Shown piece after piece: positions 29,390 through 33,083 of a DNA stretch of 64,000 bases (within the stretch, counting starts at the first letter, position 1; each line of letters opens with the position of its first letter). The position numbers were made by a program, and so were the translations under genes. Location of the stretch: the NCBI RefSeq assembly GCF_005049235.1, contig NZ_SUMD01000012.1:1-64000 (forward strand). Direction: 5' to 3'. The DNA comes from Rhodococcus oryzae. GTDB lineage: Bacteria; Actinomycetota; Actinomycetes; Mycobacteriales; Mycobacteriaceae. The notes below the pieces were generated by a model. It had not been told where the DNA came from, made no database searches, and saw only the letters and a program-made list of their open reading frames with translations.

Positions 29390-29450
29390 GCGGACGTAAT
29401 CAGCGCGCTGAGCAGCACAGTTCCGCCAATCGGCGAACCCCGCAGCGCGC

Positions 29451-29466
29451 TGTGACGGACGTCACA
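29451..29466 (+). promoter_or_regulatory. Perfect CRP/GlxR-type binding site in the 29390-29740 gap
   Basis: TGTGA-CGGACG-TCACA matches the consensus TGTGA-N6-TCACA at every fixed position. A CAGATT hexamer at 29489-29494 would place a transcription start about 42 nt from the site centre, the geometry of an activated class II promoter. The gap also has two copies of the self-complementary CAGCGCGCTG (29401-29410, 29442-29451) and a GGCGGATCCGCC palindrome (29560-29571). I see no convincing gene in the remainder of 29390-29740. Confidence 0.6.
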
Positions 29467-29740
29467 ATCGTTCGACGAAGGCGGGCATCAGATTCCGTAC
29501 ATGCGTCCAGTCCGGTTCGTGTAAAAAGAGTCCGAATGCAGTGAGGGACACCCCGTCCGGGCGGATCCGCCGACGCTCGACCGGTCGGATGTTCGGGGTT
29601 CGCTGCAGTCGGGGGATCACATTCGTTCTGCCCGTCGCCATCTCCGGATGCGACACCAGCTCGATTCGTCTCCAGCCAACGAGAACGCTGGCTTCAGCGC
29701 CTCTGTAATGAACACCGCACATCGCAATGAAGGAGCTCAC

Positions 29741-29857
29741 ATGCCCAACCCCGGTGACATCGACGGCCTGTTCGGATCGATTGCCAACATCGTCAACTCC
29801 TTGCTCTCGGGCGCTGCCAGCGGGTCGGCCCAGACCCCCCCAACCACGGGCGTCTAG
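29741..29857 (+). CDS. Small 38-residue peptide, function unknown
   Basis: The 38-residue product starts MPNPGDIDGLFGSIANIVNS and ends in SGAASGSAQTPPTTGV, with a short hydrophobic helix between. The ATG has a strong AAGGAG 5 nt upstream, and a perfect terminator hairpin follows 23 nt after the stop, so this looks like a true gene despite its size. Spacing of hydrophobic residues in the helix suggests an amphipathic peptide. Corynebacteria and relatives make cell-wall channel peptides (PorA, PorH) of this size without signal sequences; I see no direct similarity to them, so that is only a possibility. Confidence 0.6.
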   Translation: MPNPGDIDGLFGSIANIVNSLLSGAASGSAQTPPTTGV

Positions 29858-29879
29858 CTCGACACGATTGTCTGCCGGC

Positions 29880-29911
29880 GAGGGCCGGGACCGAGTTCGG
29901 TCCCGGCCCTC
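29880..29911 (+). terminator. Terminator hairpin, copy 1 of an identical pair
   Basis: A perfect 14-bp stem pairs 29880-29893 (starting GAGGGCCGGG) with 29898-29911 around the loop AGTT. It lies just after the 38-residue peptide gene. The same arms and 8 nt of flanking sequence recur at 30121-30160. Confidence 0.8.
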
Positions 29912-29993
29912 GCTCCGTCTCACCGCGATTCCTACCGCACAGCGGGAAGCTGCGCACCGCTCGCCACCAGCACAGCACCATCAAAGAGATTCC

Positions 29994-30095
29994 GTGTCCC
30001 TGGTCTTCGACACCCCGATCTACGCGCTGCTTCTCGACCTGGGGGCCGCCTTTGGCTGGTCACTGGGACCGACACCGATGCCGGGCGCCGGCTAG
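29994..30095 (+). CDS. Small 33-residue hydrophobic peptide, function unknown
   Basis: A GTG start gives 33 residues: MSLVFDTPIYALLLDLGAAF followed by GWSLGPTPMPGAG. The middle is strongly hydrophobic and could insert in a membrane. An AAGAG about 5 nt upstream is a modest ribosome binding site. The gene lies between two identical terminators, so if expressed it needs read-through from copy 1 or its own promoter. It pairs with the 38-residue peptide by position but not by sequence. It could be spurious. Confidence 0.45.
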   Translation: MSLVFDTPIYALLLDLGAAFGWSLGPTPMPGAG

Positions 30096-30120
30096 TAAAC
30101 TCGCCGACCGCTCACAGCCG

Positions 30121-30152
30121 GAGGGCCGGGACCGTATGCGGTCCCGGCCCTC
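30121..30152. terminator. Terminator hairpin, copy 2 of an identical pair
   Basis: The 14-bp arms 30121-30134 and 30139-30152 are identical to copy 1; only the 4-nt loop differs (TATG instead of AGTT). It starts 25 nt after the 33-residue peptide and ends 6 nt from the uvrA stop, so it can terminate transcription from both sides. Confidence 0.8.
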
Positions 30153-30158
30153 GCTCCG

Positions 30159-33083
30159 TCACACCTTCGCGGCGACCTTCCGCGGCGCCCGCTTGCGCTT
30201 CGGCGGCGCCGCGGGTGCGACGGGCGCGCCGTCGAGCACGTCCCGCAGGAACCTGCCGGTATAGCTGGCAGGCACCGCCGCGATCTGCTCGGGGGTGCCC
30301 TCCCCCACCACGGTTCCGCCGCCCGATCCGCCCTCGGGCCCCATGTCGACCACCCAGTCCGACGTCTTGATCACGTCTAGGTTGTGCTCGATCACGATCA
30401 CCGTGTTGCCCTTGTCCACCAGGCCGTTGACGACGCCGAGAAGCTTGCGGATGTCCTCGAAATGAAGTCCGGTCGTCGGCTCGTCGAGCACGTACACGGT
30501 GCGGCCGGTGGAACGCTTCTGCAGCTCGGCGGCCAGCTTCACCCGCTGCGCCTCGCCGCCCGACAGGGTCGGCGCCGGCTGGCCGAGACGCACGTAGCCG
30601 AGCCCGACCTCGACGAGCGTCTTGAGATAGCGGTGGATCGAGGTGATCGCCTCGAAGAAGTCGGCGGCCTCCTCGATGGACATGTCGAGCACCTCGGCAA
30701 TGGTCTTGCCCTTGTAGTGCACCTCCAGGGTCTCCCGGTTGTAGCGGGCCCCGTGGCACACCTCGCACGGGACGTACACATCCGGGAGGAAGTTCATCTC
30801 GATCTTGAGCGTGCCGTCTCCCGAGCAGGCCTCACACCGGCCACCCTTGACGTTGAAGGAGAACCGTCCCGGTTGGTAGCCGCGCACCTTCGCCTCGGTC
30901 GTCGCGGCGAACAGGGTGCGGATCTTGTCGAACACGCCGGTGTAGGTGGCCGCGTTCGAGCGCGGTGTCCGGCCGATCGGCGACTGGTCCACCTGGACCA
31001 GCTTGTCGAGCTGGTCCAGCCCGTTGATCCGGGTGTGCCTGCCGGGGACCTGACGCGCGCCGTTGAGCTTGTTCGCCATCACGGTCGCGAGGATGTCGTT
31101 GACCAGAGTCGACTTGCCCGATCCGGAGACACCGGTCACCGAGGTGAGGACGCCGAGCGGGAAGCTGACGTCGATGTTCTTGAGGTTGTGTTCCTTGGCC
31201 CCGATCACCGTGACCTGACGCTTCTTGTCGACGGGCCTGCGAATAGCAGGCACGTCGATCGTCGACCGGCCGGAAAGGTATGCGCCCGTGAGGGATTCCT
31301 CGCAGGTCAGCAGCTCCTCGTACGGGCCGCTGTGCACCACCCGACCGCCGTGTTCACCCGCGAGCGGGCCGATGTCGACGACCCAGTCCGAGGTCCGGAT
31401 GGTGTCCTCGTCGTGTTCGACGACGATGAGCGTGTTGCCGAGATCCCGCAACCGGGTCAGTGTCTCGATCAGCCGCCGGTTGTCGCGCTGATGGAGCCCG
31501 ATGGATGGCTCGTCCAGCACGTACAGGACGCCCACCAGGCCGGAACCGATCTGGGTGGCGAGCCGGATCCGTTGGGCCTCGCCGCCGGAGAGGGTGCCTG
31601 CCGCACGTGAGAGCGACAGGTACTCGAGACCGACATCGAGCAGGAAGCCGAGCCGAGCCTGCACCTCCTTGAGGACCTGACCGGCGATGGCCTCCTCCCG
31701 GGCTCCGAGCGTGAGGCTGTTCAGGAAATCCGCGCAGTCCGAGATCGACAACTCGGCGACGTCGGCGATGGACTTCTTGCCGTGCTCGCCCGCCGCGATG
31801 GTGACCGAGAGGATCTCCGGCCGGAGCCGGGCACCGTCACACGCCGGACACGGCACGTCGCGCATGTACCCGTCGTAGCGTTCCTTCATCTGCTCGGACT
31901 CGGTCTGCTCGAGCCGACGGTGCAGGAAGGGCATCACGCCCTCGAACTCGGCGTAGTACGAGCGCGTCCGCCCGTACCGGTTCTTGTACTTGACGTGCAC
32001 CTGGTCCGCGCTGCCCTCGAGCACCGCCTTGCGTGCCTTGGCCGGCAGTTCGTTCCATGGGGTCGACATCTCGAAGCCCATGATGTCGGCGAGTCCGGAC
32101 AGCAGGCGGCCGAAGTACTCCGATGTCTGCCCCATCGACCACGGCGCGATCGCCCCGTCCTCGAGGCTCAGCTCGGGATCCGGCACCACCAGGTCCGGGT
32201 CGACCTCCTTGCGGATGCCGAGTCCGGTGCACTCGGGGCAGGCGCCGTACGGCGAGTTGAACGAGAACGACCGCGGTTCGAGATCGTCGATCGAGAGGGC
32301 ATGCCCGTTCGGGCAGGCCAGCGACTCGGAGAAGCGGCGTTCCCGGTCCGGCGCGTTCTCGTCCCGATCGACGAAGTCGAGGACGACGATGCCGTCGGCC
32401 AGGCGAAGCGCGGTCTCCACCGAGTCCGTGAGCCGCTGCTTCGAGCTCGCCTTGACCGTGAGGCGGTCGACGACCACCTCGATGTCGTGCTTCTCCTGCT
32501 TCTTGAGCTTCGGCGGGTCGGTCAGCTGATGCACCACGCCGTCGACCCGGACCCGTGCGTACCCCTGGGTGTTGAGCTGGTCGAAGAGGTCGACGAACTC
32601 ACCCTTACGGGTGCGGACCACCGGTGCCAGCACCTGGAAGCGGGTGCCCTCCTCCATGGCGAGCACCTGGTCGACGATCTGCTGGGGGCTCTGCTTCGCG
32701 ATCTGCTCGCCGCACACCGGGCAGTGCGGGGTGCCGGCACGGGCGTAGAGCAGACGGAGGTAGTCGTACACCTCGGTGATGGTGCCGACGGTGGATCGTG
32801 GATTGCGGTTGGTCGACTTCTGGTCGATCGACACCGCGGGCGAGAGGCCCTCGATGAAATCGACATCGGGCTTGTCCATCTGACCGAGGAACTGGCGGGC
32901 GTAGGCCGACAGCGATTCGACGTAGCGCCGCTGGCCCTCCGCGAAGATGGTGTCGAACGCGAGCGACGACTTGCCCGAGCCGGACAACCCGGTGAAGACG
33001 ATGAGACTGTCCCGTGGCAGGTCGATGTCGATGCCTCGCAGGTTGTGCTCACGCGCTCCTCGCACGATCAAGCGGTCCGCCAC
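30159..33083 (-). CDS. uvrA: Excinuclease ABC subunit A
   Basis: UvrA finds DNA damage and loads UvrB in nucleotide-excision repair. The 974-residue ATPase has two ABC modules: Walker [20 protein letters not shown] near residue 33 and [15 protein letters not shown] near 645, each with a signature ([32 protein letters not shown]). Zinc-binding cysteine pairs occur in [17 protein letters not shown] and CEACSGDG. The GTG at 33083 follows AAGGGA. I see no complete LexA box upstream, only a TCGAAC half-site near 33176. Confidence 0.97.

Follow-up and report, generated by a model that had tools for sequence, protein, structure and literature searches.

In the 64-kb stretch of Rhodococcus oryzae DNA analysed here (hereafter the window), two very short reading frames lie between a DUF1801 gene and uvrA, which raises the question of whether these frames are genes, how they are controlled and what their products might do. 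A sequence-only reading had placed frames of 38 and 33 residues here, and both are present, with the neighbours identified by Pfam as DUF1844, DUF1801 and uvrA. The first frame (29741-29857, plus strand) begins with ATG and encodes the 38-residue sequence MPNPGDIDGLFGSIANIVNSLLSGAASGSAQTPPTTGV, peptide 1; the second (29994-30095, plus strand) would encode the 33 residues of peptide 2 from a GTG codon with a weak Shine-Dalgarno sequence. The convergent uvrA gene (30159-33083, minus strand) anchors the locus in relatives.

The 38-residue frame as a gene

When 101 genomes are searched at the protein level, peptide 1 has matches at E 2.3e-5 or better in the window genome and five relatives of its genus only, namely Rhodococcus sp. 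RD6.2 (G004), R. maanshanensis (G002), R. triatomae (G001), R. tukisamuensis (G003) and R. spelaei (G005), the next-best match outside those six having an E-value of 0.05. The same six genomes are recovered at E 4e-20 or better when a peptide 1 profile is run against 401 genomes of the family; profile matches in 93 further genomes, with E-values from 0.0145 to 0.5, were taken as chance. Weak protein matches outside this genus and the second genus considered below (best E 0.0063) were also dropped as chance on the basis of their E-values, and many of them sit in frames of more than 100 residues or contain stops. Profile searches of the genus genomes reveal no second peptide 1 copy better than E 0.05. 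In all six genomes the orthologue lies beyond the 3' end of uvrA and on the other strand, and the distance from the end of peptide 1 to the uvrA stop ranges from 63 to 301 nt, the largest value being that of the window genome, where an extra segment intervenes.

Conservation extends to the coding signal. Summed over the 15 pairs of a 24-codon core, pN/pS is 0.42 in the true frame, and this excess of silent over amino-acid change indicates that the frame is under selection; the five other frames give values of 0.78-3.93, with stops in some. Variable columns at the first, second and third codon positions number 13, 5 and 14 of 24. One close pair, G000/G002, runs the opposite way, with pN (0.17) exceeding pS (0.11). 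Moreover, the sequence-only reading had attributed a strong ribosome binding site and a terminator of its own to peptide 1, and this description holds, with AAGGAG (29730-29735, plus strand) standing 5 nt ahead of the ATG and a hairpin downstream. The AAGGAG element is retained ahead of peptide 1 in 6/6 genus genomes, and a G+C-rich hairpin is seen by eye 3' of each orthologue, folding having been computed for the window. The same reading had named missing conservation and missing coding bias as the findings that would count against it; peptide 1, with orthologues in every genus genome and its low pN/pS, shows both conservation and coding bias. An antisense frame at 29462-29923 was considered and rejected, there being no sign of selection on it (anti-frame pN/pS 0.86, 1.01 and 3.93); it is open because of the high GC content. 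Searches of Pfam and NCBIfam give no family for the five peptides tested, and no published description of the locus was found in the literature searched, in which coverage of subscription papers is thin. Judged from these sequence comparisons, peptide 1 is almost certainly the product of a real, uncatalogued and lineage-restricted small-protein gene.

Probable promoter, leader and hairpins

The sequence-only reading had also pointed to a perfect TGTGA-N6-TCACA box, and this CRP/GlxR-type element, TGTGACGGACGTCACA, is found at 29451-29466 on the plus strand as the sole perfect box of the window; none arises in 100 shuffles of the window, and 14 perfect boxes occur genome-wide compared to 1 for a reversed control pattern. 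Upstream of peptide 1, the GTGA-N6-TCAC core is present in all six genus genomes and the perfect 16-mer in two. A second element, CGTGTAnAAAG (29518-29528, plus strand), is likewise conserved in 6/6 and is probably the core promoter, covering the -10 region, with the transcription start presumably just downstream, near 29531-29535. The spacer between the two is 52 nt in five genomes and 51 nt in one (62-63 nt when measured from the CRP centre to the box), so that a conserved CRP core stands at a constant distance from the probable core promoter in every genus genome, and spacer identity is 0.29-0.55 in 14 of the 15 pairs and 0.75 for G000/G002. The paired arrangement of CRP core and CGTGTAnAAAG is unique in the genome. 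On this evidence CRP very probably controls peptide 1.

The genomic context of the other boxes was sampled by choosing, by eye, one neighbouring gene at each of 6 of the 14 sites. Five of the six have best NCBIfam matches to acetate-CoA ligase, NarK, a fumarate reductase/succinate dehydrogenase flavoprotein, Rpf and a peptidoglycan hydrolase, although only the acetate-CoA ligase match clears its curated cut-off and three of the genes are fragments at the end of a locus; the sixth has no NCBIfam match. The chosen genes start at positions from overlapping the box to about 400 nt away. By analogy, the set looks like a CRP regulon of the type known for GlxR. It resembles the CRP/GlxR regulon of actinobacteria in that its boxes are perfect matches to TGTGA-N6-TCACA, some of them close to acs, narK, sdhA/frdA and rpf-like genes, but differs from it in that the target at this locus is a small-peptide gene adjoining uvrA, which is not known to be a target of that regulon.

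Between promoter and gene lies a leader of about 150-220 nt across the genus genomes. In the window it contains a hairpin read by eye as TGCAGTGA...TTCGCTGCA with a variable interior (29537-29607, plus strand), followed by the conserved motif GGGGGATC / TCGGGGGATC (29609-29618, plus strand). A hairpin with TGCAGTG/CACTGC-like arms is seen by eye in five of the six genomes, G002 being the exception, and the GGGGGATC and TCGGGGGATC forms of the motif occur in 6/6 and 5/6 genomes, respectively. In G002 the hairpin is cleanly missing, and the leader runs nearly straight from the CGTGTACAAAG box into the GGGGGATC motif. Leader folding is ordinary in five genomes (z -0.9 to 1.75), with a z of -3.6 in G003, and a structured-leader riboswitch was rejected on the basis of the ordinary folding energies in 5/6 genomes. 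Rfam searches of the six loci return 7 matches at E-values up to 5, all of them under the gathering scores, and these were taken as chance.

Downstream of peptide 1 the window carries two copies of a hairpin that may act as a terminator. Copy 1 (29878-29913, plus strand) has 17-bp arms and is recognised by its repetition and folding energy; copy 2 (30121-30152, plus strand) has 14-bp arms and lies between the peptide region and the convergent uvrA gene. Both belong to a direct repeat of 45 nt (29880-29924 and 30121-30165, 241 nt from start to start). The copies had been called identical in the sequence-only reading. Both are real and their 14-bp arms are the same, but the loops differ and identity over the 45 nt is only 91%. 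The further statement that the flank of copy 2 reaches the uvrA stop is borne out by an overlap with the stop codon at 30159-30161. Computed fold energies are -42.1 kcal/mol for copy 1 (z -5.6) and -35.4 kcal/mol for copy 2 (z -4.7), and no clear U-run follows either hairpin in the window sequence.

A second genus of the family has peptides of 37-43 residues, for example MGSITEILPGLISALSSGDLDITALLGSLLGGSSEQQQP, at the same place beside uvrA. A small frame with a ribosome site lies no more than 1.4 kb from the uvrA stop in 8/10 genomes of this genus and about 2.5 kb from it in G181; the tenth genome, G157, has no small peptide frame near uvrA. The 3.7-Mb genome of G157 leaves no space for such a gene, the DUF1844 end being 35 nt from the uvrA stop. 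Tandem peptide copies are present in three of the ten. A profile of the second-genus peptides, run against the 401 genomes, recovers 8 of those 10 genomes and nothing else below E 0.006. Homology between the peptides of the two genera was considered and is not supported (profile comparison probability 8, over 5 columns), and our claim is therefore limited to a common position and a common build. A leaderless acidic small frame beside uvrA was found at 1 of 23 loci outside the genus of the window, in G014 of the second genus, these 23 being drawn from 29 loci read among the 30 best-matching of 61 genomes. Among the ten second-genus genomes, G132 has a 40-residue peptide of different sequence at the same place, built of repeats of 11-12 residues (LGSLTSLLGN-D); its start is 223 nt before the uvrA stop, and it has a strong ribosome site and an upstream GTGA-N6-TCAC palindrome. 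By eye, genomes of the second genus carry a GTGATC-N2-GATCAC-like palindrome downstream of a conserved TTGGTAGCGT-like box, which probably places the palindrome in the leader. Another inverted repeat, also seen by eye, stands in place of this palindrome in G222 and G169, as if an RNA hairpin and not a CRP site were being kept.

Peptide 2 and the extra segment

The sequence-only reading had proposed a system of two peptides, and this proposal is not supported, peptide 2 being present in just one of the six genus genomes. No match better than E 0.5 is found in the five others, and the best match outside the window genome (E 0.05) lies inside a frame of 755 residues. Peptide 2 sits in an extra segment (29925-30120, plus strand) that matches the peptide-1 unit of G004 colinearly and may be a diverged or decayed tandem copy of such a unit. 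Alignment of the segment to the G004 unit scores 49, compared to a shuffle mean of 24.0 (sd 3.3), and 0/300 shuffles do as well; the alignment spans most of the segment but needs many gaps. Similarity to the G001 unit is weaker, with 3/300 shuffles as good, and the other four units, including the window's own, give no signal (36-176 of 300 shuffles as good). When profiles are searched against the 64-kb window, that of G004 alone places the segment second at E 0.013 (the next match being at 0.62), a four-relative profile places it second at E 0.022 (third match 0.052), the combined G004 and G001 profile places it third at E 0.045 over 31 nt only, and G001 alone finds it at E 6.8. In the same window, the segment is not found by the six-row profile or by G000, G002, G003 or G005 alone. 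The segment similarity thus rests on one relative, and much of the case for a copy depends on the repetition of the hairpin and on the tandem location. Between the two copies, the stretch from stop codon to hairpin is only weakly similar (120/2000 shuffles as good). Likeness of the encoded proteins is within chance, 53/1000 shuffles being as good for peptide 2 and the G004 peptide and 581/1000 for peptide 2 and the window's own peptide 1. Searching the genome for another source of the 201-nt segment 29920-30120 recovers the segment and, elsewhere, 12 short matches, none with an E-value below 0.04.

That 29925-30120, with peptide 2, arose by tandem duplication of the peptide-1 unit and then diverged or decayed is in our view an evenly balanced proposition and the likeliest of the origins considered; our earlier and somewhat more favourable estimate was lowered because the six-row profile misses the segment. 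If the segment were instead unrelated DNA that arrived with or between the duplicated hairpin, peptide 2 being a chance frame, the failure of the six-row profile and of the four single-genome profiles to find it would be expected, as would the missing source elsewhere in the genome; nevertheless, an alignment to the G004 unit that beats all 300 shuffles, and a colinear match ranked second by the G004 profile in the tandem place, make this account somewhat unlikely. Peptide 2 could also be functional, evolving fast and partnering peptide 1 in the way that PorH partners PorA. Its frame is open with coding-like base use (GC1/2/3 = 0.70/0.55/0.85), and it is acidic without Lys or Arg like peptide 1, a composition that is rare in the window, where 3 of 559 frames of 33-60 residues have at least two acidic and no basic residues, peptides 1 and 2 among them. 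Tandem pairs are maintained in the three second-genus genomes mentioned above, and PorA and PorH are themselves thought to derive from duplication, according to PMC3792995. Against such a partnership stand the empty searches of the five other genus genomes, the GTG start and weak ribosome site, the many gaps needed to align the segment with the G004 unit and a likeness to the peptide 1 protein that lies within chance, and we consider it unlikely.

More than one history of hairpins and segment would fit, the two hairpins being much closer to each other than the two frames are. Hairpin copy 1 is possibly derived from copy 2, as had been suggested; the extra segment could equally be accounted for if peptide and hairpin had been duplicated together as a unit. 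Hairpins that are 91% alike beside frames that are barely alike need gene conversion, strong constraint on the hairpin, or a separate duplication of the hairpin.

Possible function and resemblance to envelope peptides

AlphaFold2, run on the six-row alignment, predicts a single helix at residues 4-24 of peptide 1 and a loose tail (pLDDT per ten-residue block 80, 90, 65 and 58; pTM 0.37). The best hydrophobic moment is 0.45-0.49, a value reached by fractions of 0.001-0.018 of shuffled sequences. Peptides of the genus set are 38-44 residues long with a median net charge of -3 (0 in G005) and 0.17 Lys/Arg per peptide, five of the six having none, and a signal peptide is absent as judged by eye. 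An LLAGGSS stretch fits a mycoloylation site, which proves nothing.

This build recalls the leaderless envelope peptides of corynebacteria. PorA/PorH and PorACj/PorACur are, like peptide 1, acidic amphipathic helices, of 37-57 residues (PMC3792995, PMC5944148); PorACur has 37 residues (PMC5944148), and PorACj has 40, with no presequence and with AGGAG and its own terminator (PMC3792995). Signal peptides are absent from PorA, PorH and PorACj, as from the peptide 1 set by eye, and the PorA median net charge of -3 equals that of the set. The AAGGAG-type ribosome site and own terminator of PorA/PorH (PMC3792995, PMC5944148) have their counterpart in the AAGGAG element and the hairpin (by eye) of each peptide 1 gene, a correspondence read from sequence; frequent tandem arrangement and low interspecies conservation are further points of likeness. 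In contrast, PorA/PorH lie between groEL2 and the polyphosphate kinase gene ppk2 (PMC3792995) and peptide 1 beside uvrA, with a long leader, a CRP box and a single peptide in 5/6 genus genomes. ProtX (Cg2875) of Corynebacterium glutamicum, an orphan small envelope protein, also has 38 residues, six of them serines, and no classical signal sequence (PMC5310785); it is likened to peptide 1 by description, not by sequence, and differs in that mycoloylation is reported, probably at Ser37 (PMC5310785). When both peptide sets were compared by hhalign with 10 PorH and 9 PorA rows from 12 corynebacterial loci, collected with a PorH query, probabilities were 0.2-1.1. This negative is weak because PorH compared with PorA itself gives only 18. 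The PorH query matches at E 0.01 in 14/151 genomes of its own genus, which implies that such peptides drift quickly and that sequence searches miss many of them. The resemblance to PorH/PorA pairs suggested by the sequence-only reading thus survives as a common design, without a profile match and at a different locus.

Taken together, 29451-29913 would form one transcription unit for the 38-residue peptide, and CRP-cAMP, at a site about 72-76 nt ahead of the putative transcription start, would activate it in a class-I geometry. Its product lacks Lys/Arg and a signal peptide and is predicted to form one helix, acidic and amphipathic, over residues 4-24, followed by a Ser/Gly/Thr tail that is flexible. 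This peptide would reach the envelope, perhaps with one of the tail serines O-mycoloylated, and would oligomerise in, or line, the mycomembrane, acting like PorA/PorH/ProtX. The segment 29925-30120, peptide 2 and the second hairpin would then go back to a tandem duplication of the unit, the copy having since diverged or decayed. By analogy of build, and with no claim of membership in those families, we tentatively favour peptide 1 as a CRP-controlled envelope peptide working like PorA/PorH/ProtX, at a confidence that stays short of even. Counting against this assignment is the lack of any sequence or profile match to PorA/PorH. The Rhodococcus channels PorARc, PorARr and PorBRr, which are envelope channels of the same order, also count against it, being proteins of 20 kDa or more that belong to the MspA family (PF09203) and carry Sec signals (PMC9233653).

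Given its length of 21 residues and its small polar side chains, the predicted helix might just as well attach to the inner membrane or to a partner protein, for which SpoVM and other regulatory micropeptides provide precedent. Peptide 1 might then be a cytoplasmic-side protein that adjusts the membrane or partner to which it binds, under CRP control, as carbon supply or growth changes. The one amphipathic helix without signal peptide, the finding of only one copy in each genus genome at the E 0.05 level, and a CRP box common to metabolic genes make this possible, if doubtful; the acidity, the Ser/Gly/Thr tail and the fast drift between genera suit an exposed, loosely constrained structural peptide, although that is a weak argument. 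Secretion of an amphipathic peptide of the phenol-soluble-modulin or leaderless-bacteriocin sort, acting on outside membranes, would be in keeping with a short leaderless helix, a strong ribosome site and the tandem copies of the second genus, but the peptides are acidic with almost no Lys/Arg, and the direct neighbours DUF1844, DUF1801 and uvrA include no transporter or immunity gene, which renders it very unlikely. We find it just as improbable that the transcript is a type I toxin or a dual-function RNA acting mainly through its long leader, the peptide being minor. The leader length, the TGCAGTG/CACTGC-like arms in 5/6 genomes and the GGGGGATC motif in all six would fit such a role. The unexceptional folding in 5/6 genomes, the lack of an Rfam match at gathering score, the hairpin missing from one genome, selection on amino acids and the absence of a conserved antisense frame speak against it. 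Type I toxins are short basic transmembrane peptides with an antisense RNA antitoxin; peptide 1 is acidic and amphipathic.

Returning to peptide 1 as a candidate envelope peptide, the cited literature on corynebacterial envelope peptides describes O-mycoloylated residues as mostly serines amid Gly, Ala and Ser, with no strict motif (PMC3792995, PMC5944148, PMC5310785, PMC11066868, PMC9233653, PMC12632848). Rhodococcus is reported to have orthologues of Cmt1, a protein mycoloyltransferase, and protein O-mycoloylation is described as not demonstrated in mycobacteria (PMC11066868). Two channel-forming proteins of R. equi were reportedly described in a paper of 2003. How leaderless helical peptides of 4-6 kDa are exported and assembled in the mycomembrane is presented in PMC3792995 and PMC12632848 as unsolved even in Corynebacterium.

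Three sequence types occupy the position beside uvrA, and in one of these the peptide consists of a repeated element of 11-12 residues. A broader proposal, which we regard as speculative and unlikely, is that minimal, leaderless, acidic, CRP-controlled helical envelope peptides have evolved independently at this site and have been duplicated and rewritten repeatedly. Mycomembrane pores or coats of the PorA/PorH kind would then have arisen a second time, outside Corynebacterium and from an unrelated source, and peptide 2 would be an incipient partner. Peptide 1 reveals a conserved class of genes missing from Pfam and NCBIfam and, having the same build, an unrelated sequence and a readable probable CRP promoter, may allow both leaderless export and protein O-mycoloylation to be examined in a second case, in Rhodococcus.
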